Shown here: positions 424-15,863 of the stretch, in pieces | Layout of the letters: the number at the start of each line of letters is the position of its first letter | Numbering within the stretch: position 1 is the first letter of the stretch | Virus record (IMG/VR): IMGVR_UViG_3300017740_000042 | Coordinates: 1-30,604 of that record | DNA: 30,604 bases | Source: a virus | Direction: 5' to 3' (one strand) | The notes under the pieces: model-generated | Seen by the model: only the letters and a program-made list of their open reading frames with translations | Database searches by the model: none | What the model was told of the DNA's origin: nothing | Program-made: the position numbers and the translations under genes

Positions 424-548
424 TTATTAACACTTTAAGTGTACCATAGGGGCTATTTACCCCTCCTATTCCCTCTGTCTTGTAAGTCTTTGTTATTACT
501 ACTGTTATGAATGTACCTTTATATCCAATTATTAACACTAAGTGAACC
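424..548. repeat. Pair of palindromic direct repeats around the terminase stop
   Basis: Two related copies lie at 424-445 and 529-548 on the plus strand. They share ttattaacact, then aagtg, then acc, so each contains a small palindrome (cacttTaagtg and cactAagtg). The second copy overlaps the last codons of the large terminase gene; the first sits in the 370-518 spacer. A short hairpin (aggg/ccct arms, 448-464) lies between them. Nothing else in the spacer looks like a gene. The repeats may be operator, promoter or RNA-processing sites; I cannot decide which. Confidence 0.4.
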
Positions 549-2189
549 CTTATTTCTCTTATGGAATGTGTTCTCAAACTCTAGGAGTTGTTCTTTAATA
601 AGGTCGTGTTTTCTTTCTTGCATCTTTAGGTCAGCATCTTGGTTCATTTGTTCTACCCAATAGCTGACAGCCATAGATAGAGCATCAAGTCTATCATCAT
701 GAGTAATAGCCCCACGGTCTCTTGTTATACGAGACATCTGGTAGAACAGTTGGTACTTTAGTTGAGCTTCTGGTTTATATGAGCTGCAACTATCGTAGTC
801 CTTACGGATAACCTTAGGGTCAACTACGAGCTTATGGTTAGCCATTACAGGCTCTAGGGTCTCAATAATGCGTAGTTCTTTTTGTTTAGAGTGACGGACT
901 TCTTCTATGGTGCATGGGTAAACCTTATTTAGAATGGGTCTAAGTAGTTCAACGAACATACCATCACCGAAGTTAGACTCGACTATGATAGCGTTTACCT
1001 TGTGTTCCTTAGCTATCATTGTCAGATTCTTAAGGGTAGCCTCGTCGTAGCCACCAGAGAGACCACCTGCTTCTGGGACAAATAGTGTACCATTGAGCAT
1101 CTTAACGACAGCATATCCAGTCTCATCCTTACCACGCCCAGAGGGGTCAATACTAAGGACACTGCCTGTGAACTCTACGTGGTCACCCACGGTGGTCATA
1201 GGGCGGTAGTATCTGTCCCCTGAGAGTCCGACGTTAGGGATGCTGCCGTCATACTCAAGGTCAGGGGAAGATGCCCACACGAGCTTCTCAGGTGCTACCT
1301 CTTTGTCTATAGGGGTAACGATGAGGTCACTGAGTTTTAGGGGGTATCTATCAACATCACTCAAGCGAGCATCCAGCATGAACTGCATGGCAAAACCAGC
1401 AGAACCGTAGGATATTTGGCGCTCTCTGAGGTCGATGTTAGAGAAGCGGGTGGGTTCAGTAGAATCTCCTTCTTTCTCAGAATCGACACAGAGGGGGCTG
1501 ACGTTGCCGTTATAGGCGTTTTCGTGCTTGGTTGGAGTAATATATTGCGCAGTCCATATGCGCGTCTTGTAGCCCCTCTCAGACAGCTTATAATAGATTG
1601 TGTCTTCACACTGTGGTGTCCCTAGGACTAATACCTTAGCGTCATCGTTAGGTTTGAGGATAGCGTCGAACTCTTTGATTTGTTCTGACAGCTTGTCCCT
1701 CATGGTTTGGGTAGCACTATTGTTGGGTACTTCTACGTCGTCCGCTACAATGATGTCAGCACGACTACCTTTTAGCTGCGAAGTGACCCCAAGCGACTTG
1801 ACGGAGGGTGCATGGGAGGCTGGGGCGAGTCCAACGTCAAAAGATATCTTAGAGAATCTCTGATTTGCTTTAGGTCGCAGGTGTTCCAGTATATCAAGTT
1901 CATGGATAATCCTAAGCGTAAATGTCGAGAAATCGTCCGCTCTAGTCTTTGAAGCCGAGACAACAAGGATATTCTTTCGAGGGTCGAGGAGCAACTGGTG
2001 TACAACAAAAGCAGAGCATATCCACGACTTTCCAACTCCTCGGAAACCCTGTATAATAGCTCTTCGGTCTCCTGATTGCATAAAGGAAGCAATCTCATAT
2101 TGGATAGGGGTAGGGTCTGGAAGGTTGAGTTCTTTCCATACAATGTAAAGGAAGTTACGAAAATCCTTTAACTGTTCAGGGACTTCCAT
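519..2189 (-). CDS. terL: Terminase large subunit (T7 gp19-like)
   Basis: This is the DNA-packaging ATPase and nuclease that docks on the portal and pumps phage DNA into the procapsid. At 556 aa it is close to T7 gp19 (about 586). The N-terminal ATPase domain has a Walker A motif (GFRGVGKSW, K54) and a Walker B motif (IIVADDVEV, D150/D151). The C-terminal RNase H-like nuclease domain shows acidic residues in SIDPSGRGKDETG (D348), IIVESNFGDG (E404) and HDDRLDALS (D498-D502). The ATG overlaps the stop of the small terminase gene as TAATG, indicating translational coupling. All expected catalytic residues are present, so it should be functional. Confidence 0.96.
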   Translation of the reverse strand: MEVPEQLKDFRNFLYIVWKELNLPDPTPIQYEIASFMQSGDRRAIIQGFRGVGKSWICSAFVVHQLLLDPRKNILVVSASKTRADDFSTFTLRIIHELDILEHLRPKANQRFSKISFDVGLAPASHAPSVKSLGVTSQLKGSRADIIVADDVEVPNNSATQTMRDKLSEQIKEFDAILKPNDDAKVLVLGTPQCEDTIYYKLSERGYKTRIWTAQYITPTKHENAYNGNVSPLCVDSEKEGDSTEPTRFSNIDLRERQISYGSAGFAMQFMLDARLSDVDRYPLKLSDLIVTPIDKEVAPEKLVWASSPDLEYDGSIPNVGLSGDRYYRPMTTVGDHVEFTGSVLSIDPSGRGKDETGYAVVKMLNGTLFVPEAGGLSGGYDEATLKNLTMIAKEHKVNAIIVESNFGDGMFVELLRPILNKVYPCTIEEVRHSKQKELRIIETLEPVMANHKLVVDPKVIRKDYDSCSSYKPEAQLKYQLFYQMSRITRDRGAITHDDRLDALSMAVSYWVEQMNQDADLKMQERKHDLIKEQLLEFENTFHKRNKGSLSVNNWI

Positions 2190-2425
2190 TAATCGTTATA
2201 GGCTCGTATCACTTTGTCTACAGCGTCATCTTTAAATGGCAATACTTTTACAAGTTCATTCATAGGATTGTCGTTGGTTACTGTAGCGGAGATGTTATTA
2301 TCTTTGAGCATCTGCCGAGCAGCATTAAGGTCGCTAGGGGTAGCGTTGCCACTGTTAATACGACTGATAAACTCGTCAATAAGAATATCCTGTAAGTTAT
2401 TAAGTTTAAGGGACTTGTCACTCAT
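2189..2425 (-). CDS. terS: Terminase small subunit (T7 gp18-like)
   Basis: A 78-aa protein just before the large terminase, overlapping it by TAATG, the T7 gp18/gp19 arrangement. T7 gp18 is about 89 aa. The sequence is mostly helical with a central segment resembling DNA-maturase small subunits (ATPSDLNAARQMLKDNNIS). Its role would be recognition of concatemeric phage DNA and regulation of the large subunit. The assignment rests on size, position and the ARQMLKDN-type motif. Its ATG overlaps the stop of the upstream 49-aa membrane protein in the same TAATG manner. Confidence 0.85.
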   Translation of the reverse strand: MSDKSLKLNNLQDILIDEFISRINSGNATPSDLNAARQMLKDNNISATVTNDNPMNELVKVLPFKDDAVDKVIRAYND

Positions 2426-2574
2426 TATTTTAATTCCTTTATAATTTTAATTATTAGATAGATAAACGAGGCGAGACCTACGAATATAGCCACGACAACA
2501 TTAATATCTGCTAATGTTAGAGTGCCGAGGATACCCATGAATCCGACAAGTGAGGGGAAGTGCTGTGATTCCAT
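2425..2574 (-). CDS. Holin-like small membrane protein (T7 gp17.5 position)
   Basis: A 49-aa ORF between the tail-fibre and small-terminase genes, exactly where T7 encodes its class II holin gp17.5. A short polar N-terminus (MESQHFPS) leads into a hydrophobic segment (VGFMGILGTLTLA). A second, longer one follows (INVVVAIFVGLASFIYLIIK), and the protein ends in a basic tail (KIIKELK). Two candidate membrane spans with a charged end fit a small holin that would let endolysin reach the wall. It starts 9 nt after the fibre stop and ends in TAATG with the terminase gene. Function is inferred from topology and synteny. A second holin-like pair lies near the lysozyme gene. Confidence 0.72.
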   Translation of the reverse strand: MESQHFPSLVGFMGILGTLTLADINVVVAIFVGLASFIYLIIKIIKELK

Positions 2575-2583
2575 TTTATTATC

Positions 2584-3666
2584 CTATGATTCATACATAA
2601 TGTTAACTGACCCTGCATCAAAAGCACCACCTGAAGATTGCTTTATTCTTAATCTGTCTACAGTTCCACCTACTGAAACATCTCCACCCCCAAACATACC
2701 ATTGCTTGTATTGTATTTGCCAGAATGAGCATTAACATAAATATTTGAACCCATATGTGCTATTGTCATAATCCCTGACAAAATATTACCACTTTCAATT
2801 CCATACATATAAAAACCAGTTGCGTCACTACTTCCACCACTTCCATAATGAGAAGTAGAAAGATACCCTGATGTAACTAAACCACCACTTGTACCAAGTT
2901 GTACTAAAACACCAGTATCAGAACCACTTGAACTTACTCCTCTAAATATTACAGAAATTCGTTTTGCAGTTGATGGTATGCCAGTAAAGTCTATTGCTGT
3001 TCCAGACGTAGTAGCTACAGTTGTTCCTGTAACTAAAGTAGAAGTGTTCGTAAGTTGACTTCCATCAACCGCAGGTAGTTTAGCAGTGCCATCAAGTTTC
3101 ACTAGGTTGTTCGCACTTGTTCCAACACCACTAGCAAGTTTACTGTCAGCAATACTTCCTGCTAACTGTGCGCTTGTTATACCACCTGCAAGCTTATCTT
3201 GGGAAATACTTCCTGCAAGCTTATCGTTAGTAATACCACCTGCTAGGTTACTGTTAGTAATACTTACATTCGCTAGTTGTGAACTGACTATGTTACCTAT
3301 ACCGCTACCACCTTCAGGGTCAGCATCTTCTGCTACCTCTTGTGCCACAAACAGTCCTTGTTGGTAAGCTGTATCAAGGTCACTCTCTGACAACCTTGAG
3401 CCGTTCTGGAAGTCTATCAATGGTTCCGTTGTGGAAGAACGAAACACACGTATCTTTGAGTAAGAACCAGAAGTTGGTGTAGCACTCAGAGTGACTGTTG
3501 TCGTTCCTCTTGAGGATATTGTTAGTTCTGTCCATGTGCTTCCATTTAATCCTTTTATGCGGATGTCATTGATGCTTAAGAACTTAGTAGGGGCAGTGAA
3601 GGTGGTCTGTGAGAGACCATTTGTTCCACTGCCTGCGGTTGTATATTCAACATATGAGTTTGCCAT
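2584..3666 (-). CDS. Tail fibre protein (T7 gp17-like N-terminus)
   Basis: A 360-aa receptor-binding fibre, shorter than T7 gp17 (about 553). Residues 1-115 match the T7 fibre N-terminal domain that attaches to the tail (opening SYVEYTTAGSGT, later VFRSSTTEPLIDF). Residues 128-181 are six nine-residue repeats of the x-x-x-K-L-A-G-S-I type, a likely thin shaft. After a linker (LDGTAKLPAVDGSQLT) comes a Gly/Ser-rich tip of about 145 residues containing AIDFTGIPSTAKRISVIF, a tip type I know from other marine phage fibres. No Shine-Dalgarno is visible before the ATG, only a C-rich stretch. The attachment end is conserved, while the tip should determine host range. Confidence 0.9.
   Translation of the reverse strand: MANSYVEYTTAGSGTNGLSQTTFTAPTKFLSINDIRIKGLNGSTWTELTISSRGTTTVTLSATPTSGSYSKIRVFRSSTTEPLIDFQNGSRLSESDLDTAYQQGLFVAQEVAEDADPEGGSGIGNIVSSQLANVSITNSNLAGGITNDKLAGSISQDKLAGGITSAQLAGSIADSKLASGVGTSANNLVKLDGTAKLPAVDGSQLTNTSTLVTGTTVATTSGTAIDFTGIPSTAKRISVIFRGVSSSGSDTGVLVQLGTSGGLVTSGYLSTSHYGSGGSSDATGFYMYGIESGNILSGIMTIAHMGSNIYVNAHSGKYNTSNGMFGGGDVSVGGTVDRLRIKQSSGGAFDAGSVNIMYES
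3124..3285 (-). repeat. Six tandem 27-nt units in the tail-fibre gene
   Basis: Six in-frame 27-nt units encode nonapeptides at residues 128-181: SSQLANVSI, TNSNLAGGI, TNDKLAGSI, SQDKLAGGI, TSAQLAGSI and ADSKLASGV. Position 5 is always Leu and position 9 Ile or Val. Units are diverged at the DNA level but keep the period exactly. Such arrays form repetitive fibre shafts and can change length by recombination. Confidence 0.85.
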
Positions 3667-3678
3667 TGTAGTAGGGGG

Positions 3679-6600
3679 TTAGAATTTAGGTAGTAAGTCT
3701 TTAAAGGATTTTAGTTCCATTACTTCAGGTGGGTCGATTGTCGTAAACTCTTCGGTTTCATTAATGTAATCCAATATAGGTTTATCATTTTCATCTATGA
3801 AGTTTTCGAGGAAAGACTGGTCAGATAAGAGTTCATCTTTAATAATTTTATAGTGATACCGAAGTTCTTTATTGAAGTCTTGAAAGCCAAGATTGACTGT
3901 CTCATCACCTACTATTTGTAACTGTCCAGTATCTATGCGTTCTACAAAGTCATTCATAATATCTTGAAGACCATATTCAGCAACGCGTAACTTGAAGTGG
4001 TAATATAAGTCGATACCCTCTTCGTCCACAAAGTTTTTCATGTTTGTTCCTTCAAGAGATGAACTAGGTTCGATTGGGATAGCCGCTTCTTTGTCGGCTG
4101 CTACGATTTCTTCCCAAGGCTCATAAGGACGTTTGCGAGCGCCTGCATATCTATTGACGGTGTGCCAAGCAGTATGAGAACTTGTTTCAGGTTCACCCAT
4201 CATGTTAAGTCTTATCTTCTTATTGCCCGCACCAAATGCTCCATAGACTAATCGTTCTCCAAAGCTTGCTCCACGTAAGTCGGCAATGCTCTCACCGTTC
4301 GATATCTTTCTAGTTATCTTTTTAACTTGTTGTGGATTAGGAACATATGAACTTATCCACTTAGCAACAACGTCCGCTGACCTTTCACTAACAAATGTTT
4401 TCATGTCGCGTACTACTTGGTTTGTGGGCATTTCGTTTGCCGCAGCTACCACTGATTGGATAGTCACAGTTAATGGAGTTGTATCCTTTGATAAGTTCTT
4501 AGGCTGTCCGTCCTGACCTTTGTTTTCTAATTCAGCAGCATACCGTCCTAAGTCGGACATAATAGCCACTAGAAATACAATAGGTGCGGCTGCCTTATAG
4601 TCCTGACCCATGAATTGAAATCTTGCTAGGTTTGGATTTCTTTCCTTCTGTGCGTCCGTTAAGAAAGCGTTAGAGCCTGTTGCATATCCTGCATAACCAG
4701 CACCAAACGCCATACCACCAACGCCAATTTGAAGCATAACATCAACTAAGACTTCTTGGTTGTATTTAAACTTGCGCTTCTCTGCTCTATCTATTCGTGT
4801 ATTAAACTCATTAATACGTGTGTTAGAGTCAGCCATCTCCTTCTTAATTCTTTTTGTATTAGCTTCGTTAGGAGACTCTTTTAGTTGCTCACGGAACCTT
4901 TTGTAAGCAATACGTTCTGTTGCTACATTTCTATTTAAGTCGCTTATTAACTTATTGTAGGGGTTAAGCTTAAGACCTGTAACACGTAATGGATTTGCGA
5001 GAGTGAATGACTTCGTAGCTGTATAGACCGCAGTCTTATAGAAGGTAAATGCTACCGTCTCTAGAAGGGCTGAAGTAAACGAACCACGAATACTCGCGTC
5101 TGAATCAGGCATCATCTTTCTGATTGGCTCAATAAGTCTTTGTCTAATTAGATTATCTGCAACGTCTTCAATGTTGTTTGACTTGGAAGCCATCATAAGG
5201 TTTTCCGTAATCTTCATGTAGTCATACTCTAGCTCTTCTATCTTTCCGAGAATATGTAAACCGTCAGATTCCGTAAAAGCATTTTTAAATAACTCGTCGC
5301 TATAAGCTTTTGCTTTGGCAGGGTCATTAGGGAACTTAAGTGTCCCTTGCTGACGGAACTCTACAAGTGCTTTTTGTTCAAACAATACTTTCTTAAAGCC
5401 TGAGTCTGCCGCAAGAATACCTCGTGCGCCCATAGATAAAATATCCATAAAGCGTCCTAGTCGTAGGTTATCTTTGAGAAACTTATTAATACCCTCTATA
5501 CCTAGTGCTGCGTCTTCTGCATCACGAATAGCTTTATCCATTACCTTTCGTGTACCGCGAGGCATTAACTGTTGGTCGATAGGAGTGTCATCCATATACC
5601 GAGATGACTTGTCGAACATTGGGTCTTCACCTTCTCTAAAGGCTCTTCCCATGTGTTTTCCAAGTTGCTTCCTCTTTTCTTTATTAAATAGATATTGAAA
5701 TGCGTAACTAGCTCCTTCAAGCTCGTGCATCGCAAACTTGTCTCCAACCTTGCCTCGTTTCAATATGCGAGTAGCGAGCGCCCTTGGGTACTGCTTTAGA
5801 ACTTCAATAGCTCCTGTAGCGAGTCCAGCTTCAACAGAAGTTATCGAGGCAACCAGCGAAGTCTTACGAATAAGTCTCGCTCCACGTATACCTTTAATCC
5901 AATTATTAGTAGCATTTTGAGCTATCTCGGAATCGGTGTAGTTACGAATTGCCTTGTATAACTCTAGCCTGTCGCGGGTCAATAAAGCTTTTTGCTCATC
6001 TTTAACCAAGTTTCTTAGACGCTCTCTAAAGTATTTTTTAGCTGCGGCTATTTGTCCTTTTAACTTCTTGATTTCTGGACTAGGTTCGTCTGGTTTTGGC
6101 TTACGCTTAGACCCTTTGAGTTCACCTTGCATTTCATCAGGGACATCACGCTTGGACACTGCGATTAATCTATCTGCTTCTTTTTGCAGTTTGATAATCT
6201 TCTCGTTCTCTGCGATGTATCTTTTTACATTCTTGATGCTATTCTTAAGTGCAGCTATTCTAGCGTCTTCGGTTCTTGACCCTTTGCCTTTACCTTTTTC
6301 TTTTGGTGTACCTTTAACAAGGTCATCAAGTTCTTTTTGAAGTTTAGCAATACGCTTTTCTAATATTGCTTGTGTCTTATCAGGACTGCTTGGTGTGCTT
6401 TTTCCCCCTTTACTAGCAGGGGTAGCATCGTCGCCATCAACTTTACCAGCAGGAATAGCGTCATCTTCATCAATTATTTTTTTAAGTGAAGGAATAAAGT
6501 CATCCCCAGCATCACCTAGTATTTCATCAAGGCGTGTTTTAAGGGCATTAAGAGCTTCTTTTAGTTGTGCTGTGTTTTGTGAATCAACACTGCGATTAGC

Positions 6601-9570
6601 AACTTGCTCAAGGTCTGCTCGATTGGCTCTCACCGCGCGACCACCTATAGAGTTGAGTTGTGCAAACACACTATTAAGCAACTTAATCTGAGTTACGATT
6701 GCTTCACGGTATTGAACCAAAGTTCCTCTTTCGATTGTCTCTCCAGCCATTTTGCGTAACGCTACGTTCTCATTGAAGATAGCATTATCAAATAACTTAT
6801 TAGCTCGGATGATTATGTTTTCAACAACAGTAGAACCTGTGTTTCCTTCAACAGCTTCTTTCCAATCCTTATCCCATCGCCCTATCTCTTGGTCGAGTTT
6901 GCTTGTGGGAACTGGGGTGTCTTTAGGAGCTGGGGTAGCCTCTGGGGTTTCTTTAGGTGTCGCTAGAGCGTCTTTAGCTTCTCTCTCAAGCTTACGTTTA
7001 GCCACCCTTATATTATCCGCCATCATCCGCTCTACTTGTTTTTCAGCAGTATCTTTAAAACCTAGAAGAAAACCACGGTCTTCCCCGTCTACTAATATCT
7101 TAAAATTACCATCTTCGGTCTCTACTATTTTATATTCAGGTATCTCTAAACCTTCTGGAACATCTTTAAGTGCTGTAGATGTATCATAAGAAGCTGGTGT
7201 AGATAACTTCTCTCCTTTGATATTGAATTCTAGGTCATCTCCTAAAACAATGTCAGAAGGGTCAATTTCTGAAACCTGCTTGCTAGATGAAATATCAAGT
7301 AAAGGTTCTCCGTCGTAACCCTCTCCTACACGCTTACCACTAATTTCAAAAATCTTTCGGTTATCAGAAATGAGTTCAGGGAGAGTTTCTATCGACTCGC
7401 CAAACTCTGTCTCATCAAATGCATTGGGCTGTAGGATATACTTGCCAGTTTTTTCGTCCTTGTAGGCAAGATATACCGAGTGTCCTTTTTCATCTTTACC
7501 CGTTATGTAATTTTTAGAAGCTCCTTCAGGTAATTCGCCAAATCGAACGTAAGTACCCTCTGCCTTGTAAGGGATTCCTCCTGCGTTAAATTCTATCTCT
7601 GGGGTTTCTTTAGGTGTCGCTGGGGCTTCTACATCTAGTGTATTTTTAATAGATATATTTTTGTCATCAAATACAACATAGTTAAATGACTCTTTATCTC
7701 CTTTTCGGCTTGTCGCATCAAGATATTTAATACCCTTGTAACCTTTTGACTCAAAGAACTTCGCTACGTTTTTCGCTGCTGTTGTTTTACCTGCTTTAGT
7801 TTTGCCCTGCTTACTTATTTCACTAGATAACAAACCATTATGTAAGTCGCCTAATGTAGTATTTTTATCTACGACAAACTTAAAACCTCTTTGTTTTATT
7901 ATCTTTTGAACTTCTTTTACTACTTTGTTAATATCTCCTTTTTGCTGTTCTAAAGGGACATCCCACAGTAACATTTCTGACTCCTTTAAATTTAAAGTAG
8001 CCTTATATAAATTGCCTTTAGATTTTTCTCCAAAAGTCATATCAACCCCGTCAAGAGCTTCTTGTCCTAACTCATCTAAGGCTTTGTTAATTCTTTTCCC
8101 TTGTTGGTAATCAAGAACGATGTTTTTAACAGCAATAAATTCGTTTAGTTCTTCGCCTGAAAGCGACGAAGTATCAACCTTAGAAATTTTACCATCTAAC
8201 GGTATATCTATTCCTTTATAAGTTACTGAAGTTATTGGCTCTCTAGTTTTTTTTGATAATACTTTTTGATACCACTTTGCTATTTTTTCATCTGCTGCAA
8301 AATAAAGTCCATGCCCAAACGCTTGCGCTCCTTCACCCGTTCCTATTTTATTTACATCAAATGATTTAATTTCGTGAGGAGTTCCATGAAATACTTCAAT
8401 GTTTTTATCTGAAGCGTCTTTAGGTGTCGCTGGGGCTTCTACCTCTGGCTCATCATCAAATGGCTTCGGTGGCTTCTCATCAATGTCTAAAGGTTTCTGA
8501 GCTGGCTGCTCTGTCTCAACCTTAGTATTGATTTCATCGGCTTGCTTAAACTGCTCTAGGTTATCTTGGAGTATTTCCCTTGCATCTTGGTGTTCTTTAA
8601 GTTTGTCTTTTAGTTTTTTTAAAGTAACTACATAACCTCTAGGATTGTTCCCTTTGCCTTTTGCTGTAAGTTTATCTATATCAGCAGTAACAAGCTCAAT
8701 GGCTTCGTCCATGCGGTCTACTGCGCGTTGACTTAAGGTGTTGGCTTGGGTTCTGCCCCATGCGCCTGTCTTAGAGAAGACACCAAACATTCCGTTGATA
8801 CCTGCACCTGCACCAGTAGAGATGATGTAGTCCCAAGCATTGCGTGACTCTTGGTCTTCAAATACTTGAATAGCTAACTCTTGGCGTAAGGCAGATTCAG
8901 CAAGACCTAGTGTAGCACCGCTGACCATCTTAGGTGCGCCCTTGATAACAACCTCTCGTGCTTTCCAAGCTCCGAGGTCTACCAAGCCATCACTGATTTT
9001 CCAGTTAGTGCTTTTGATTAGTCGTTCGCCAATCTTAAAACCTTCCATACCCTTCTCAATAGGTTGGGCAATAGAGCCAAACACGGCAGTAGAGATTAAC
9101 TCACCTGCATATATCTTGTCTTGAACACCATATGCTTTACGGATGCTTTGACCAAATAAGTTACCAGTTGCCCATATAGCAGCTTCAGTCCCCGCGAAAC
9201 CAACAACTTGCACCACTGCTCCAGGAATTGTGGTAGCTTTAGGCGCTGTAGCAACGTTAGCAAGTTGAACACCACGGATTGAATTATAAATATACTTAGC
9301 GTTACGAACTGAGTTAGCGTATCTTCCAGCGCTATTAAGTTTGTAGCTAAGTGCTAGACTTGTGGTCATCTCACCAGTAAATCCTAAACCATAACCAGCC
9401 ACATAGTTTGCTTCTTGCTCTTTCTTCTGGTTGTAGTCGTTGACGTAATTCATCACCTCAATAGGCAACCCATCTCTTGCGATGTTTACGCTAGGCTCAA
9501 TCGGAGGACTTACTGTATCAAGACTTTCATTGTCGTCTTGGAACAAACTATTTGCGTCAAATGTACTCAT
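3679..9570 (-). CDS. Giant internal virion protein (gp16-like) with ADP-ribosyltransferase-like domain
   Basis: A 1963-aa protein at the T7 gp16 position (T7 gp16 is 1318 aa), directly after the gp15 homologue with a TAATG overlap. It should be in the internal core and ejected through the host envelope. Residues about 1-375 are helical with Gly/Ala-rich hydrophobic stretches; I see no lytic transglycosylase motif, unlike T7 gp16. Residues 391-643 resemble ART-PolyVal domains (FHGTPHEIKSFD, GHGLYFA, SFNYVVFDD). Pro/Thr linkers (VEAPATPK at 377 and 647, ATPKETPE at 870) separate this from an unrecognised module (656-868). Charged, Lys/Glu-rich helices, probably coiled coil, run to about 1170. 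The C-terminal part carries hydrophobic segments near 1606-1636 and 1657-1675. The gp16 role is inferred from order, size and composition; the ART call rests on motifs. Confidence 0.85.
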   Translation of the reverse strand: MSTFDANSLFQDDNESLDTVSPPIEPSVNIARDGLPIEVMNYVNDYNQKKEQEANYVAGYGLGFTGEMTTSLALSYKLNSAGRYANSVRNAKYIYNSIRGVQLANVATAPKATTIPGAVVQVVGFAGTEAAIWATGNLFGQSIRKAYGVQDKIYAGELISTAVFGSIAQPIEKGMEGFKIGERLIKSTNWKISDGLVDLGAWKAREVVIKGAPKMVSGATLGLAESALRQELAIQVFEDQESRNAWDYIISTGAGAGINGMFGVFSKTGAWGRTQANTLSQRAVDRMDEAIELVTADIDKLTAKGKGNNPRGYVVTLKKLKDKLKEHQDAREILQDNLEQFKQADEINTKVETEQPAQKPLDIDEKPPKPFDDEPEVEAPATPKDASDKNIEVFHGTPHEIKSFDVNKIGTGEGAQAFGHGLYFAADEKIAKWYQKVLSKKTREPITSVTYKGIDIPLDGKISKVDTSSLSGEELNEFIAVKNIVLDYQQGKRINKALDELGQEALDGVDMTFGEKSKGNLYKATLNLKESEMLLWDVPLEQQKGDINKVVKEVQKIIKQRGFKFVVDKNTTLGDLHNGLLSSEISKQGKTKAGKTTAAKNVAKFFESKGYKGIKYLDATSRKGDKESFNYVVFDDKNISIKNTLDVEAPATPKETPEIEFNAGGIPYKAEGTYVRFGELPEGASKNYITGKDEKGHSVYLAYKDEKTGKYILQPNAFDETEFGESIETLPELISDNRKIFEISGKRVGEGYDGEPLLDISSSKQVSEIDPSDIVLGDDLEFNIKGEKLSTPASYDTSTALKDVPEGLEIPEYKIVETEDGNFKILVDGEDRGFLLGFKDTAEKQVERMMADNIRVAKRKLEREAKDALATPKETPEATPAPKDTPVPTSKLDQEIGRWDKDWKEAVEGNTGSTVVENIIIRANKLFDNAIFNENVALRKMAGETIERGTLVQYREAIVTQIKLLNSVFAQLNSIGGRAVRANRADLEQVANRSVDSQNTAQLKEALNALKTRLDEILGDAGDDFIPSLKKIIDEDDAIPAGKVDGDDATPASKGGKSTPSSPDKTQAILEKRIAKLQKELDDLVKGTPKEKGKGKGSRTEDARIAALKNSIKNVKRYIAENEKIIKLQKEADRLIAVSKRDVPDEMQGELKGSKRKPKPDEPSPEIKKLKGQIAAAKKYFRERLRNLVKDEQKALLTRDRLELYKAIRNYTDSEIAQNATNNWIKGIRGARLIRKTSLVASITSVEAGLATGAIEVLKQYPRALATRILKRGKVGDKFAMHELEGASYAFQYLFNKEKRKQLGKHMGRAFREGEDPMFDKSSRYMDDTPIDQQLMPRGTRKVMDKAIRDAEDAALGIEGINKFLKDNLRLGRFMDILSMGARGILAADSGFKKVLFEQKALVEFRQQGTLKFPNDPAKAKAYSDELFKNAFTESDGLHILGKIEELEYDYMKITENLMMASKSNNIEDVADNLIRQRLIEPIRKMMPDSDASIRGSFTSALLETVAFTFYKTAVYTATKSFTLANPLRVTGLKLNPYNKLISDLNRNVATERIAYKRFREQLKESPNEANTKRIKKEMADSNTRINEFNTRIDRAEKRKFKYNQEVLVDVMLQIGVGGMAFGAGYAGYATGSNAFLTDAQKERNPNLARFQFMGQDYKAAAPIVFLVAIMSDLGRYAAELENKGQDGQPKNLSKDTTPLTVTIQSVVAAANEMPTNQVVRDMKTFVSERSADVVAKWISSYVPNPQQVKKITRKISNGESIADLRGASFGERLVYGAFGAGNKKIRLNMMGEPETSSHTAWHTVNRYAGARKRPYEPWEEIVAADKEAAIPIEPSSSLEGTNMKNFVDEEGIDLYYHFKLRVAEYGLQDIMNDFVERIDTGQLQIVGDETVNLGFQDFNKELRYHYKIIKDELLSDQSFLENFIDENDKPILDYINETEEFTTIDPPEVMELKSFKDLLPKF
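6940..8442 (-). repeat. In-frame linker repeats delimiting two modules of the gp16-like gene
   Basis: Copy A (8417-8442) and copy B (7607-7632) are an identical 26-bp string beginning tctttaggtgtcgctggggc on the plus strand. They encode VEAPATPK and are 810 bp (270 codons) apart, flanking the ART-like domain. Copy C (6940-6964) shares 25 bp with the region of B (7597-7621) and is in frame, 657 bp (219 codons) further on. A partial fourth copy (ctttaggagctggggt) lies near 6920. Recombination between A and B would remove the ART-like segment without breaking the frame. Confidence 0.9.
7642..8400 (-). other. ADP-ribosyltransferase-like (ART-PolyVal type) domain of the gp16-like protein
   Basis: Residues 391-643 of the gp16-like protein. 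The first motif, VFHGTPHEIKSFD, supplies the NAD-binding His (H395) of H-Y-E type transferases. The second, GTGEGAQAFGHGLYFA, gives the Tyr (Y423). The domain ends with YKGIKYLDA and ESFNYVVFDDKNISI, the usual end of this family; E627 is a possible third residue but its alignment is uncertain. Domains with this signature occur in large phage and plasmid polyvalent proteins delivered with DNA. Activity and target cannot be told from sequence. Confidence 0.72.
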
Positions 9571-11921
9571 TATTTTAGAAAGTCAGCTTGGACTGTAGCA
9601 AAGTATTGGAGGGTTTCGTCATTAGAAATACCAAAAGATGTTATAACCTTGAGTGTTTCTTTTTCTTCATCAGTTAAACTATCAGGGTCGTTAGTTGCTT
9701 TTGATAATACGGGAGACCACTGGGTGTTTATTGTATTAACAAACTCGTCCCTGTCCCTAAAGAGTCTTACCTCATTGATTCCTAACTTAGACCTCTTAAG
9801 GTCGTCAGCCGACTTAGGGTCAAACCCGTGGCGGTATCCATAAATAAGCATAGTAGCCGTTAGCTCGGCAGTCTCTTTGTTTTTACGATGACTCTCGTAG
9901 GCATCCGTAAGGGTCTGCGGTGTAGGTATATACTTACCCTTACCAAGCTTCTTTACGTTAGAATATTTGATATGCTCATATTCAGTATCGTCAACAGTTT
10001 CTTCTATCTTAGCTTCAATAGAACCTTTTACAGTATCTTCCGAACCATCAAAAGGCACAAATGGTATATCCTCGTCGGTAACTAAATCTGCTACCGAACC
10101 AGTAAGAGGAGTTTCATCATATAGACCAATTAATAGATTACGTCCTTTGAACAACTCATTTTCAATCTCTACATACTCATCCATCTGTGAGTTTATAAAA
10201 TCACCAATGGCTTTATTACGCACCACAGGGTCAGCGTTTATAATTGAGATGTCTTTTCCATCTTGTTTCACAATACCATTACGAGCAAATTCTCGTATGT
10301 CTGCAACAAGTAAACCATAAATTGAACTACTACGCGCAGATGACTCACCCGTTAAGTTTAGGTCTTTAAATCCTTGTTGTGTTCTGTTTAGTTGTGTTGT
10401 TGCACCAAAAGATAGTTTTAATTTATTAGTAACATCTGATTCTGAAAGGCTTTTAACAGCAGGAACTTCTGAAATATAATCAATTGCGTGAACCTCATCA
10501 TATATCGTTTGTAATTCTGCTGGGACTTTTGCTTTCCCAAAGCCATAATTAGCAACCATCTGTGAGGGCAGCGCGTTAGGATTTGCTGTGAAGAAGTCGT
10601 ATGCTTGCCCTGTAAGATTTTTTACTTGGGTATCGTTAAGACCACTGATGGATTCAGGGGATACACTATTAAGTTGTATTTGTGTCTCAAGTAAGTTCTG
10701 CGCGGATAAGTTAAAGACTTCTTTAGAAAGGTCTGAAGCAGCTTTACCATCAATGGTTCCTTGCCCTAACTCTAATAAGAAATCGTTATATAGACGAATA
10801 CGAGCTTGGGTGTCTTCTGTGCCTTTTAGTGTTTCAAAGAACTGGCTTACACTATCACCTTCAATGTCTACATTAGGTCGTATTAGGGAAAACACATCCT
10901 TCATTTGATTTAATGATGCGTCTTTTATTTCTTTACCAAGTAGGGAATAGCTTACGCTTTCACTTGCTCGCCTGACCTCAGTAGCAATGCTTGATGTCTT
11001 ACGTTCGGTGTCAGCCTCTTGTCCTCTTTCAATAGCATCAAGAAGGTTAGACAGTCCTTGTCGGTCTTTTCCAGCAAGCTTTGCGCCCTTGTAGAACTCA
11101 TAATCAAGCGCTGCTTGGACAGCTTTCTTGGCTTCAGCATACTGTCCGTTGTTTTTAAGTTCAGTTCCAATAGCAGTTGTGTGTACGACAAAGTTTGCTT
11201 TAGCTAATTTATTATCAACACCATCAAGACTTTTAATTTCCCCAAGATATGCTTTGTAGGCTACTGTGGGGTCAGCTCCATCTTTTACTTGGTCTGCTAA
11301 GTGCGCTCCTTTAATGTCCAAGGTATAGTTAATCTTATTGGTCTCATACATCTCTGTAGTCTGTCCAATAACCTCAGTCATTATTTTGTCACCGAAGGCA
11401 TTGAGAGCCATTACACGGTTAGGGTTATTACCAAACTTTTCTTGTAGTTCACCTATAAGTGCGTTCTTCTCTTCTGTGATAGCTGTGTCAAATTCTGCGT
11501 CACTGCCATACGCTGCTGGGTTAGCTGCTAAGTTTGTAAAGCGTTGAGTGATATCACCTTTAGTGCGAACAAAGTGGTCTTTAACAAGCTCTTCTTGGAA
11601 CGTCTTGTCATACCCTAGCCACCTAGAAATCTTCTTGTCGTCCTCCATTGCTTCTTTCTTCTCAGCCTCAGTCATCTGAGAGAAGTCCTCTTTGGCTTGT
11701 GCTTGTCCTATATTCTTAGCAGCCCCAAGTATCTGTGGAACTTGATTCAAAGCCTTAGCGAAGTTCAACGCTTGGTTTGTTTGGGGCATCGCTTGAACAA
11801 CCGTTCCGCTACCTCTGGTCTGTTGAACAGTGGGCGCTAAGGTAATCTCAGAGGGGTCGTAGCTTACTTGGACGCGCTCGTCTGAAATGCCTAGTAGTGA
11901 TTTTAGAGTTTGTTTAGCCAT
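9570..11921 (-). CDS. Internal virion protein (T7 gp15-like)
   Basis: A 783-aa protein (T7 gp15 is 747 aa) between the gp14-like and gp16-like genes, coupled to both by TAATG overlaps. It is largely helical and charged with no signal peptide or clear membrane segment. The N-terminus (LKSLLGISDERVQVSYDP, then QALNFAKALNQVPQ) resembles gp15 homologues of marine podoviruses. In T7, gp15 forms part of the internal core and helps build the periplasmic DNA conduit and ejection motor. The assignment rests on order, size and composition rather than on a catalytic motif, but the synteny is complete. Confidence 0.85.
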   Translation of the reverse strand: MAKQTLKSLLGISDERVQVSYDPSEITLAPTVQQTRGSGTVVQAMPQTNQALNFAKALNQVPQILGAAKNIGQAQAKEDFSQMTEAEKKEAMEDDKKISRWLGYDKTFQEELVKDHFVRTKGDITQRFTNLAANPAAYGSDAEFDTAITEEKNALIGELQEKFGNNPNRVMALNAFGDKIMTEVIGQTTEMYETNKINYTLDIKGAHLADQVKDGADPTVAYKAYLGEIKSLDGVDNKLAKANFVVHTTAIGTELKNNGQYAEAKKAVQAALDYEFYKGAKLAGKDRQGLSNLLDAIERGQEADTERKTSSIATEVRRASESVSYSLLGKEIKDASLNQMKDVFSLIRPNVDIEGDSVSQFFETLKGTEDTQARIRLYNDFLLELGQGTIDGKAASDLSKEVFNLSAQNLLETQIQLNSVSPESISGLNDTQVKNLTGQAYDFFTANPNALPSQMVANYGFGKAKVPAELQTIYDEVHAIDYISEVPAVKSLSESDVTNKLKLSFGATTQLNRTQQGFKDLNLTGESSARSSSIYGLLVADIREFARNGIVKQDGKDISIINADPVVRNKAIGDFINSQMDEYVEIENELFKGRNLLIGLYDETPLTGSVADLVTDEDIPFVPFDGSEDTVKGSIEAKIEETVDDTEYEHIKYSNVKKLGKGKYIPTPQTLTDAYESHRKNKETAELTATMLIYGYRHGFDPKSADDLKRSKLGINEVRLFRDRDEFVNTINTQWSPVLSKATNDPDSLTDEEKETLKVITSFGISNDETLQYFATVQADFLK

Positions 11922-12562
11922 TAACTATATGCTTTAAAGGGTGATTTATATACAGGGAGGTCTAACATTCCCATATTAGAAGATTTTTGACTTAACTTAG
12001 CGACACTTTTCATTGATGTTCCTGATGTGCTACCAGATGATTGTCCGAACCCAGAACCTTGAAGTGCGCCATAAGTTGCTAGTCCAGTTTGTGCGCCACT
12101 TACTAACGCACCTGCATAGTCTACTTCTGCGATTGGGCGATTGATGCGTAACATATTATTAGTAAATCCTAGTCCTGCACTTCTAAGTGAAATGTCGCGT
12201 CTTACGTCTAGCATCTGTGCTTGGGTATTTACCGAGTTATTATACATCGCTTCCTTACGAGTTAAGTCATTCATAAGTGCATCTACGCTAAGTCCTGCAA
12301 CACCTGCTTCACCAGCAGATACTCTAGCGGTGGCTCTGGCTTCTCTAGCTTTTGTCTTATTAGCTTGTAACTTCTGAGCCATCGCAACTTGCTCTTGACC
12401 TTGCTGTGTGCGCAATGAGGATACTTCATTGAGGTAACGCTGCCTCTCAACTATAGAAGCATTTTTTTGTACTTTTTCTTGAGTTTTGGCTTGTATCTGC
12501 TGTCCTCTGATTGACACGGCAGCAGAAGCGATTAACATTCCTATTGATACTGGGTCACACAT
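11921..12562 (-). CDS. Internal virion protein (T7 gp14-like)
   Basis: A 213-aa protein (T7 gp14 is 196 aa) that starts MCDPVSIGMLIASAAVSI, a hydrophobic N-terminus typical of this family, followed by a long Gln/Ala/Arg-rich helical region (QGQEQVAMAQKLQANKTKAR). It probably lies at the portal end of the core and forms the outer-membrane part of the ejection channel. The Ser/Gly-rich C-terminus (GSGFGQSSGSTSGTS) is likely disordered. Its stop overlaps the next ATG as TAATG. Family evidence is the N-terminal pattern, the size and the position. Confidence 0.87.
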   Translation of the reverse strand: MCDPVSIGMLIASAAVSIRGQQIQAKTQEKVQKNASIVERQRYLNEVSSLRTQQGQEQVAMAQKLQANKTKAREARATARVSAGEAGVAGLSVDALMNDLTRKEAMYNNSVNTQAQMLDVRRDISLRSAGLGFTNNMLRINRPIAEVDYAGALVSGAQTGLATYGALQGSGFGQSSGSTSGTSMKSVAKLSQKSSNMGMLDLPVYKSPFKAYS

Positions 12563-12565
12563 ATA

Positions 12566-13042
12566 TTATTGCTTTCTGTAAGTTATGATAAATTCGTAAA
12601 AGGGTTGATTATTAAATGATAGTGTTCGCGTAAACTTTGCACCACAAAACTTAAGCCACTTAATGGCAGTCTTATTTTCGGTATGAACAAAGTTAAAGGT
12701 TGCACCGTAGGGTTTAGTTAAAGACTGGGTTACTTTGCGGGATGCTTTAAGGAAGTCGTAGGATGCGTCATGAACGGCATCAGTGCCTAGCATCCAAATA
12801 TACGCCATATCAATGACTTGTCCAACACCAAGCATGGCAATAGGGACATCACCGCCATCAACAATCGTGAGGGTGACATCATCAGTTTCAAAAGCTCTAT
12901 GCAGGGATTCCTCTGGAGTGCTGCCCATACAAGCAACTTCAAGTCTATCCTCCTTGCGTATAAAGGGAACGATGTAGTCAATATGGCTTTTCTTTGCCTT
13001 TATTAACTTATGTGTCCCTTGCTGAAATACTGGGTTAGCCAT
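12566..13042 (-). CDS. Virion assembly protein, T7 gp13-like (GNAT-like fold)
   Basis: From the ATG at 13042 (MANPVFQQGTHKLIKAKK) the product is 158 aa. An upstream Met at 13120 lies deep inside the tail tubular B gene and is unlikely. The gene overlaps tail tubular B by 8 nt and precedes the gp14-like gene, the position of T7 gp13 (138 aa). Motifs such as DVPIAMLGVG, YIWMLGTDAV and the late NKTAIKWLKFCGAKF follow an acetyltransferase-like pattern also seen in the gp13/DUF2833 family. T7 gp13 is needed for internal-core assembly. I see no convincing acetyl-CoA loop, so catalysis is doubtful. Confidence 0.72.
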   Translation of the reverse strand: MANPVFQQGTHKLIKAKKSHIDYIVPFIRKEDRLEVACMGSTPEESLHRAFETDDVTLTIVDGGDVPIAMLGVGQVIDMAYIWMLGTDAVHDASYDFLKASRKVTQSLTKPYGATFNFVHTENKTAIKWLKFCGAKFTRTLSFNNQPFYEFIITYRKQ

Positions 13043-15863
13043 ATCGGTTAGAGCGAGAGTGAACAAAGGATTCAAACTCAGCACTCTGGAAGTTACTTGG
13101 GAGTGCGCTTCCATTCTCAATAGTAATAGTTGTATCCTGTGCTTTGGTAAGTATAGGGAAACGATAGAAGCCTGTGTCTAGGTTAAGAGTTCCTATTGTA
13201 GTGGAGCCTACAACGTCAGGGGTAAAGATATTCTCATAGGTATCACGGAACTTAGGAGTCACCTTGACCTTAAAGAAAGCCGTCTTGTCAAAGTATATAG
13301 AGCCATTGCGTATCAACAACTTAGCGGCATTAGAAGGACTTGTTCCGTTGCCTGATTTGGCTTTGAATAGTTGCTCAGAGAAGGTGTACTTCATGGTGTA
13401 GGGGATGCCTACGAATACAGGTGTATCCGATGTCACCGCTTGTGTAAGAGTAACAGTAGCGCCTGAGTTTGTAGCGTTGAGCTTGAGACCATCTGTTGTG
13501 TAAACCTCTACTGAGTTGTCTGCTGGGGTGTATGGTAGGGTGATTGTAGACGCACCGTTGGTGACTGTAGATGCCACTCGCATATCTAGGTGAGTAACAA
13601 AGCCAGCCGAGTCAGTTAAGCCAGACTCTAGGGGCATCTCAACGAGGTTAGTTTCTCCGTTGTTTACGATGACTGCGTATAGACTAGATTTAATAAACTC
13701 AATGCCTCGTATCTCACCAGTAAAGGTAAACTTCGACCAAGCACTCAGTACTTTTTGGTTGTTGTTCCAGAAGTAATTATAGATGTATAGCGAACCTTCC
13801 TCATCACCACTCAGTAACGCAATTACGTCCTCAGAGGTAGTCCCTGCCATATCTATGATGTTGCTGGGGATATAAGCAGGAACGTGTTCAGTGACCTCTG
13901 TGGAGTCGTAATTATCTGTAGAGGCATTTACGGTGAACTCTCTCATCCCTGTAAAGGCTCCACGAGTGAACGGGAAGTAGATGTAAGAACCTAGTGGCAA
14001 TGGGTCTACTTGGTCTTCAAAACTGAAGTTTGTAATAGGGGTGACGCTGACCGTCTTAGGGGTCAACACATCTCCACCCTTCATAACGAACTGTCCATTC
14101 TCTGAGAACAACACGAGGTTCTCTTGAAACCCCTTAGCTGATTTAAGGTTAGTCACTCGGCTACTGGATACCGATACATCAATAGGGTCGGAGTCTAACA
14201 GAGCGGTCACTGAGGTTCGTCCAAAATTGAACACCAAGTCACCCGAAACGTCGATAGCTCCAAGACCGCTTTCTGAAATTATTATGTTTTCGTTTGATAA
14301 AAATCCCAGCCTATTTTTGAAAAAGAACATATTTTTAATAGTTTGAGAGACAAAAGAAGGGAGGGGATTAGTGTTGTCATCTCCAACTAGTCTTTCAGCG
14401 AATTTAGTTTCTTGTAAAAGAAAACTATTTTCACCAGTACTTATGAGAGAAAGAGGAAGACTTGAGCTTGCTACACCTATGCTGATTGAAGGAGCAACAG
14501 TTTCTATCCAACTACCTTTACCGACTTTACTCTGTACGCCATTACTTAATGTAGTTACACCTGTATTAGTTTCAAATTTAACGTAGTAATCATCGGCATT
14601 TAACTCAGCATCTCCCCTGACTTTTACAACAAAACCATCTGGTGCAAACATAGGTAGGTCTGAGAGAGAACTAACTTCCTTATAGATAAGTCCCAGACCT
14701 TGATTAGCTAATCCATCAAATCCAGATATCTGAAAATCAGTGCCATCTTTTCTCACCATTTCTATAAGATTATTAGTTCTCTTTATATGGAAAGCACCTG
14801 AAAATTTTGAGTCAATGTCCGTACTGCCTCCATTGTCGTGCAGTTTATCTATTATAGTTTCTGTCGATAGTTCGGTTCCAGTAGCGTTAGTAGAAGCAGC
14901 GGAGGTTATTGATGCTTCTACAGTTGAACCTGCTCCAGATACGTTTTCATCAACAATGGTCGTTGCGTAGTTACTCCCTGTAGCGGGTGAATTGAAACCT
15001 TGAATAATTGGGTAAGTGTTACCTGACCCGCTCTGGTTTGTACCTAAACCCGTAAAAAGCCCTTGATTATTAACGTCTGCGTTGCCAGCAGGTGAACCAT
15101 TAGCGATTGGAAAAGTTACGTTTTGTTCTGTTTGAGTCGTCACTCCTGTAAGTTGAAGGGTTGCGGTTCCTGTATAGCTGCTTCCGCTGCTCGCAACAGT
15201 TGCACCAGCTATATACCAATCCCGTCTATAAGTGTTACCGTTCCGACCTCCCGTTACGAATACGTCATTGTAAGCCCAATTTACAGTAGCAGTTGCGCCA
15301 CTACCTATAACTATAACTGCATCGCTACTTGAAGTTATTTTAATACCATACTCTCTTTCGTAGTCGGCTTGTTTAATGAATATTAAAGCCTTCTTTTCTA
15401 ATTCAGGAGTGGTATCTATCTGGTTATTACTATCATTTTTTAAGCTGACAGATTTTGAGGTATTAAGTAAAAAGGTTCTATCAGCGACCGTAAGAGCCTT
15501 CATGTCGGTTCTCGGTGTGAGTGTATCTAAATAGCTTCCTGTAGCTGGTGTATAAGAACTAGCGTTGTTTATTGTTGCTGGGTATCCTGTAACTGAGTTC
15601 CACGCTTTTATTGTTGTGCCATCATGAATAAGAACATACTTCTCTGAGTCACTCCTATTGATAAAGTGAACAAAGCTATTACTGTCTATAGCCGTCGTAA
15701 GCAACCTAGCAATGTGCCTAGTATTAGGACGCTTCTTCAGTCCATCTGCAACAGAGCTAAGAGCGTTTTCCTGCTCCTCACATTGACCAGCAAAACGAGT
15801 TGCGTCTGGTTGTTGAGATACCCCTTGGATGAGGTTAGGGACACTTGTATTAATTAATGCCAT
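13035..15863 (-). CDS. Tail tubular protein B (T7 gp12-like)
   Basis: A 942-aa nozzle protein (T7 gp12 is 794). The start ALINTSVPNLIQGVSQQPD is diagnostic of the family. FAGQCEEQENALSSVADGL and KRPNTRHIARL follow, and further on FFKNRLGFLSNENIIISESG and DPIDVSVSSSRVTNL, all expected in gp12 homologues. Residues about 205-345 form a Ser/Thr/Gly/Asn-rich, beta-looking stretch that may explain the extra length and could be a surface domain on the tail tip. It is coupled to tail tubular A by TAATG and overlaps the gp13-like gene. It should form the distal tube and contact fibres and receptor. Confidence 0.95.
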   Translation of the reverse strand: MALINTSVPNLIQGVSQQPDATRFAGQCEEQENALSSVADGLKKRPNTRHIARLLTTAIDSNSFVHFINRSDSEKYVLIHDGTTIKAWNSVTGYPATINNASSYTPATGSYLDTLTPRTDMKALTVADRTFLLNTSKSVSLKNDSNNQIDTTPELEKKALIFIKQADYEREYGIKITSSSDAVIVIGSGATATVNWAYNDVFVTGGRNGNTYRRDWYIAGATVASSGSSYTGTATLQLTGVTTQTEQNVTFPIANGSPAGNADVNNQGLFTGLGTNQSGSGNTYPIIQGFNSPATGSNYATTIVDENVSGAGSTVEASITSAASTNATGTELSTETIIDKLHDNGGSTDIDSKFSGAFHIKRTNNLIEMVRKDGTDFQISGFDGLANQGLGLIYKEVSSLSDLPMFAPDGFVVKVRGDAELNADDYYVKFETNTGVTTLSNGVQSKVGKGSWIETVAPSISIGVASSSLPLSLISTGENSFLLQETKFAERLVGDDNTNPLPSFVSQTIKNMFFFKNRLGFLSNENIIISESGLGAIDVSGDLVFNFGRTSVTALLDSDPIDVSVSSSRVTNLKSAKGFQENLVLFSENGQFVMKGGDVLTPKTVSVTPITNFSFEDQVDPLPLGSYIYFPFTRGAFTGMREFTVNASTDNYDSTEVTEHVPAYIPSNIIDMAGTTSEDVIALLSGDEEGSLYIYNYFWNNNQKVLSAWSKFTFTGEIRGIEFIKSSLYAVIVNNGETNLVEMPLESGLTDSAGFVTHLDMRVASTVTNGASTITLPYTPADNSVEVYTTDGLKLNATNSGATVTLTQAVTSDTPVFVGIPYTMKYTFSEQLFKAKSGNGTSPSNAAKLLIRNGSIYFDKTAFFKVKVTPKFRDTYENIFTPDVVGSTTIGTLNLDTGFYRFPILTKAQDTTITIENGSALPSNFQSAEFESFVHSRSNRYG

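Follow-up and report, generated by a model that had tools for sequence, protein, structure and literature searches.

ADP-ribosyltransferases (ARTs) of the H-Y-D type have been described in phage polyvalent proteins, where early action was predicted (Iyer et al. 2017, PMC5512222), and packaging of ARTs into phage heads has been reported (PMC9503650). Domain mosaicism is known both in Helicobacter prophage proteins (PMC5512222) and in ejection proteins (PMC8954989). Here we analysed a 30.6-kb virus record from IMG/VR (IMGVR_UViG_3300017740_000042; the whole stretch is referred to as the window), in which the gene at the position of T7 gp16 encodes a large protein with an ART-like domain. A sequence-only reading of this DNA had presented such a domain as an uncharacterised effector, but the occurrence of ARTs in polyvalent proteins that phages inject, with T4 Alt taken as model, was already published in 2017 (PMC5512222), and the domain alone is a further case of that known class. 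What is new is the repeat-bounded in-frame slot around it, which the earlier reading missed: the ART belongs to a large set of interchangeable cassettes with DNA-level linker repeats on either side. Taken as a whole, the locus is best explained, and we think probably so, as an ejected core protein with a recombinational effector-cassette slot.

In the proposed mechanism, a gp16-type core protein would carry a cargo slot that follows its N-terminal domain and precedes the coiled C-terminal part. In the window this slot is occupied by an ART-PolyVal-like domain together with another one (M2), with a short proline-rich linker before and after each. The protein would be ejected at infection, as is T7 gp16, and, ahead of phage gene expression, the ART would modify a molecule of the host (most likely a protein) using NAD+. 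Cassettes would be gained, lost and swapped by recombination through the linker DNA with the reading frame preserved, and varying host defences or targets may be the source of selection on them. Sequence-level support extends to the domain with its invariant residues, the slot, the in-frame absence of its contents, the swaps and the codon conservation of the linkers.

The closest described systems share parts of this arrangement. Polyvalent proteins such as the ART-containing N4-like virion RNA polymerase of Roseovarius Plymouth podovirus 1 (PMC5512222) are likewise large and virion-associated, with a polyvalent-type ART, unrelated enzyme domains (ART, GNAT, ParB-like) across relatives and predicted delivery with the DNA; the window family differs in having a T7-type gp16 backbone and cassettes between DNA-level linker repeats, and the word 'linker' is absent from the text of that paper. 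The jhp1044 proteins of Helicobacter prophages are mosaics whose effector domains have been gained, lost and rearranged among orthologues, in up to 50 combinations, but these proteins contain PBECR and ParB domains and belong to another phage type, and repeat-bounded in-frame cassettes are not reported for them in the portions of the paper drawn on here (PMC5512222). T4 Alt is also an ART carried in the head, injected and active before phage gene expression; however, it is a separate protein of a different clade (PMC5512222), and the R-S-E active site of T4 Alt and VIP2 ARTs is not found in the window domain, which has a His-Tyr signature instead. T7 gp16 is alike in gene position, in being a large internal core protein and in its gp14, gp15 and fibre neighbours (PMC8954989), whereas the window protein has no detectable sequence similarity to it and carries effector-type cassettes; the domain swapping described in that paper concerns the relocation of a peptidoglycan hydrolase between gp15 and gp16. 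A window-type ART was also found in a giant protein encoded two genes after an 'internal virion protein' gene in vir555 (BK063671) and Rhodobacteraceae phage LS06-2018-MD07 (OP947163), and the backbone of the vir555 protein was not matched to the window backbone by hhalign. The literature yielded no description of in-frame, repeat-bounded effector cassettes for ejection or internal virion proteins, an absence that is not proof of novelty.

In the window, the ART and M2 are in-frame cassettes lying between exact direct repeats of 26 bp and 25 bp, respectively, which code for the proline-rich linker, and the repeat spacings (810 and 657 nt) are both whole codons. The corresponding empty site was found in a phage whose terL is 98.9% identical to that of the window: the gp16 of contig IMGVR_UViG_3300050343_000081 (L014=L018=L037=L041; loci are designated by L numbers) is ~90% identical lengthwise, lacks residues ~381-869 and has a single linker copy. 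Another close gp16 relative (L019:10001-12224), interrupted near residue 218 by a frameshift that may be either a sequencing error or a true gene break, is also without the ART. At 33%, the ART segment has a lower GC content than the backbone and rest of the gene (40-44%), which suggests a foreign origin. M2 (window 6964-7599, 'IPYKAEGTYVRFGELPEG...') recurs in several gp16 backbones (window, L081, L034, L073, L028, L172); it has no convincing Pfam match and is a candidate uncharacterised effector.

The slot was also recognized well beyond the window. A 20-mer of the linker repeat retrieved 14 IMG/VR stretches, all with gp16-like open reading frames (ORFs) in which it falls at interdomain linkers, with different domains between. 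The family was then recollected by the C-terminal backbone alone, avoiding linker-based selection, and comprised 13 groups at 50% identity. The linker DNA marks the slot in more than 20 other uncultured marine T7-like gp16s, and every IMG/VR match to it that was read falls in a gp16-like ORF; a linker 23-mer had no match in prokaryote genomes, and nothing related to the gp16 backbone or linker was found in INPHARED from a cultured phage. Slots hold from zero to five cassettes, including about ten distinct ART-like types, two GNATs that pass or approach Pfam cut-offs, ParB-like and SAP-like domains, M2 and other unknowns, and family members other than the window combine ART or GNAT with ParB-like and unknown domains. 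Two sister ART cassettes (L070 and L082) pass the PF18760 cut-off, with 61.4 and 49.7 bits. The 'ART-like' labels of the FHAS, YHRT, YRAEN, FHGSP and VYRGG types and the label 'ParB-like' are motif judgements only; Pfam gave nothing convincing for two ParB-like cassettes and several ART-like ones; matches of cassettes to CooT and ADAMTS were treated as chance. The cassette after the GNAT in L066:1932-7283 contains 'QEEVIHAEHLLE', which resembles a metal-binding motif, and has no convincing Pfam match.

Comparison of family members pointed to exchange of cassettes. The C part of L052, L031 and L051, from three metagenomes, is 99.9-100% identical in DNA, yet each holds a different cassette and identity collapses at the linkers. 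Conversely, nine cassette pairs at 75-93% DNA identity are common to diverged backbones, the groups sharing them having mostly ~20-30% protein identity in the backbone. M2 and the L081 cassette are 84.4% identical over 698 nt, and at the linkers identity drops from 0.9 to 0.4; the further pairs are L033/L064 (90%), L052/L053 (89%), L051/L084 (91%), L066/L069 (93%), L034/L073 (85%), L053/L082 (90%), L049/L082 (87%) and L044/L084 (75%). Groups 0 and 7 also match each other in the N- and C-terminal backbone; these matches represent shared backbone and were left out of this count. Cassette ends lie within 15 residues of the linker motif, except where matches are cut by contig ends.

The linkers themselves are conserved as DNA. 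Matches confined to the linker reach 98.8% over 84 bp, in L063 and L070, whose backbones are ~25% identical. Across groups of the family collected by backbone, codon identity was 0.90 for EAPATPK and 0.89 for TPK[ED][TA]PE, compared with 0.47 for a control made up of C-terminal backbone positions at which these same amino acids are aligned and identical, and alanine in ATPK is mostly GCG, though GCG makes up 10% of Ala codons. Such conservation favours the view that the DNA itself has been inherited or exchanged. It is possible, though we hold this tentatively, that exchange is dedicated, with the linker repeats serving as shared homology sites by which effectors (ARTs, acetyltransferases, ParB-like and unknown domains) are taken up, stacked, removed and exchanged in frame among distant phages; the outcome would resemble that of polymorphic-toxin systems or integron cassettes, only within a single injected protein. 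The alternative that survives best is ordinary illegitimate recombination, in which only joins in flexible linkers survive and linker DNA is kept by selection or recent ancestry, not as a recombination site. Disordered linkers would tolerate such joins, the linker peptides are themselves alike, and mosaicism of ejection proteins is established (PMC8954989). We nevertheless regard this alternative as somewhat unlikely, since selection at the peptide level does not predict synonymous conservation that includes the rare GCG codon, and since exact 25-26-bp copies flank each window cassette.

The order gp14-gp15-gp16-fibre-gp18-terL was constant in the relatives examined, as far as contigs extend, and in hhalign the combined backbone profile matched 'internal virion protein D' of Pelagibacter phage HTVC025P (98.4% probability) and CRP-171 gp36 (95.9%). 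The gene is best explained as coding for the gp16-type internal core protein in a T7-like phage of marine origin. Pfam found no transglycosylase domain in the window protein. The sequence-only reading had called the protein gp16-like and ejected; gene position and homology to annotated core proteins are consistent with this, but no sequence similarity to T7 gp16 was detected, and therefore ejection rests on those two lines. Together with what is known of T7 (PMC8954989), they indicate that the protein is probably ejected into its bacterial host.

Once ejected, the slot might stay in the periplasm or membrane, where the ART would act locally, modify phage proteins or merely consume NAD+, and would not reach host cytoplasmic targets. 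In T7, gp16 contributes its residues 1-228 to the periplasmic tunnel, and its C part comes to lie in membrane and cytoplasm (PMC8954989). Since the slot falls between the N and C parts, it could be on either side. NAD+ is cytoplasmic, however, as is the co-substrate required by the GNAT cassettes found in this slot, which makes retention outside the cytoplasm unlikely in our view.

We also considered whether the ART-like domain is what it appears to be. The motifs named by the sequence-only reading (HGT with H395, GHGLYFA at residues 419-425 with Y423, and NYVVFDD at 630-636) were found where it had placed them, in an uninterrupted ORF of 1963 residues, and its assignment of an ART-PolyVal-type domain to a protein at the T7 gp16 position was supported. 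PF18760 (ART-PolyVal) matched the whole protein with E=1.2e-4 (23.3 bits) and the domain alone with E=1.9e-6 (29.1 bits), which is beyond chance but under the 31.2-bit gathering cut-off; the domain is therefore labelled 'ART-PolyVal-like'. Full-length relatives were found by tblastn in INPHARED (vir555, E=1e-22; phiGT1, E=3e-15) and also in IMG/VR, and a sequence search of solved structures returned noise only. As in polyvalent proteins, which are defined by at least two disparate domains in a large protein near virion genes, the ART and M2 occur together in one protein.

A profile scan of IMG/VR identified at least 580 relatives, 80 of which were kept. Invariance of FNYVVFDD in a first alignment was set aside, since FNYVVFDD was among the scan patterns, and conservation was re-tested on these 80 loci, which were retrieved by a glycine-motif pattern that includes neither H395 nor Y423 and none of which carries the FNYVVFD scan pattern. 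Both H395 and Y423 were present in 80 of 80 relatives that are ~30% identical overall, and the loss of these residues among homologues, which the sequence-only reading had named as evidence against an ART, was not seen in this set. In the last strand, N630 was kept in 78 of the 78 relatives with a residue there, D635 in 55 and D636 in 41. Because D635 and D636 vary, the 'DD' of NYVVFDD need not be the third active-site residue.

An AlphaFold model of the domain (83-sequence alignment; pLDDT 88, pTM 0.79) places H395 in the strand at 6-12, Y423 in the strand at 37-40 and D635/D636 after the last strand; in ART-PolyVal/Tox-ART-HYD2 domains the His, Tyr and Asp belong to strands 1, 2 and 5, and the His and Tyr of the model agree with this. 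Foldseek against BFVD viral models returned neighbours named ART-PolyVal or polyvalent, with E down to 7e-14, including small proteins at 11-14% identity. The predicted fold thus agrees with viral ART-PolyVal models, but no PDB entry, and hence no solved ART, was retrieved at E<=0.001 with models from either 9- or 83-sequence alignments, so that the assignment is based on sequence and viral-model similarity. Pf-WMP3_26 (L168:1215-5702; ORF26 of Phormidium phage Pf-WMP3), at the cyanophage gp16 position, matched the window ART model in structure; having no Pfam domain, it was not counted. L001:4452-11162 encodes a 2236-residue protein combining a GGDEF diguanylate cyclase domain (E=6e-11) with an ART of the window type.

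The uncertain third active-site position and the lack of a solved ART among fold matches would also suit a domain that is catalytically dead or structural, for example a spacer in the core or tunnel. We find this quite improbable: the His and Tyr are invariant despite low overall identity, other cassettes of the slot are enzymes of another type (GNAT), and the closest gp16 lacks the ART altogether, which argues against a required structural role. The weakest alternative, that shared linker repeats led assemblers to join unrelated phages so that the cassettes and swaps are chimeras, draws on the metagenomic origin of all members, on near-identical linkers of up to 84 bp in different phages (L063/L070) and on the absence of a second close copy of the window ART from the collection, but is very unlikely, as chimeric joins would give ~100% identity and cassettes shared at 75-93% cannot be fresh chimeras, the same cassette-backbone pairs recur in independent samples (L043/L044/L045; L074/L076), all joins examined are in frame, and near-identical linkers in diverged backbones would still need explaining.

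Several observations weigh against the preferred explanation, an ejected core protein with an exchangeable effector slot. The ART domain score is 2 bits short of the Pfam cut-off, D635 is not invariant and no solved ART fold was matched. The window ART has no close relative (best ~35% identity), and its presence in this gene therefore rests on a single metagenome contig; its own join, unlike the recurring combinations, was seen in one assembly only. The low GC content does not indicate a route of entry, T7 gp16 itself was not matched by sequence or profile, all family members found are uncultured, and codon conservation alone does not show that the linker is the crossover site.

If this explanation is correct, the earliest effectors of a common marine phage type are modular and traded across lineages, and a structural protein has a way to hold exchangeable enzymes with its reading frame intact. 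It would also help to explain why internal virion proteins lie in hypervariable islands of marine phage genomes. Work on metaviromic islands (PMC3909814; HTVC010P region, PMC10504331) found that internal virion proteins of marine phages under-recruit in metagenomes and called the cause obscure; cassette exchange is not proposed in the portions of these papers considered here, and the cassette slot is one possible cause. The contents between linkers amount to a list of candidate anti-defence or takeover enzymes, mostly unannotated, each of which can be cloned and assayed.

Table 1. Positions of the slot, its carrier gene and neighbouring genes in the window.
Feature	Position	Strand	Basis or remark
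Linker repeat copy 1, GTAGAAGCCCCAGCGACACCTAAAGA, encoding VEAPATPKD	8417..8442	-	exact 26-bp direct repeat
ADP-ribosyltransferase-like cassette, residues 386-646	7633..8415	-	limits set by cassette boundaries
Codons of ART residues	H395 8386-8388; Y423 8302-8304; N630 7681-7683; D635 7666-7668	-	
Linker repeat copy 2, same 26 bp (GTAGAAGCCCCAGCGACACCTAAAGA)	7607..7632	-	810 nt (270 codons) from copy 1
First copy of exact 25-bp repeat flanking M2, AGCGACACCTAAAGAAACCCCAGAG	7597..7621	-	overlaps 26-bp copy 2
Second cassette, M2, residues 658-869	6964..7599	-	84% DNA identity to cassette of distant gp16 L081
Second copy of 25-bp repeat (AGCGACACCTAAAGAAACCCCAGAG); linker ATPKETPEATPAPKDTP begins here	6940..6964	-	657 nt (219 codons) on
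gp16-position internal virion protein (P0001), 1963 aa, one unbroken ORF	3679..9570	-	synteny; profile match to HTVC025P
N-terminal backbone domain, residues 1-376	8443..9570	-	89% identity in cassette-less L014/L037/L041
Coiled middle and C-terminal backbone, residues 891-1963	3682..6900	-	~91-94% identity in L014; 20-33% in other groups
gp15-position protein, 783 aa	9570..11921	-	position
gp14-like internal virion protein	11921..12562	-	PF24072 T7_gp14, phrog_805
Tail fibre, T7 N-terminal domain	2584..3666	-	PF03906
T7-type terminase large subunit (terL)	519..2189	-	PF22530

The gene order of the window is T7-like, on the minus strand, and runs through ssb, endonuclease I, primase-helicase, DNA polymerase, exonuclease, portal, scaffold, capsid, tail tubes, a gp13-like protein, gp14, the gp15-position and gp16-position proteins, tail fibre, gp18 and terL. 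The gp15-position protein had no match in Pfam, PHROGs or INPHARED. The window terL is 68% identical to that of uncultured MedDCM-OCT-S45-C18 and ~60% identical to that of Roseobacter phage CRP-171, which points to affiliation with marine alphaproteobacterial phages. Finally, when L044 (IMGVR_UViG_3300009705_000068) was compared with window positions 519-13120, identity was 97.5% for terL, 100% for gp18, 93% for gp13 and 85% for gp14, but only 34% for gp15 and ~33% for gp16; the gp15-gp16 pair thus seems to have been swapped as one unit between phages that are otherwise very close.

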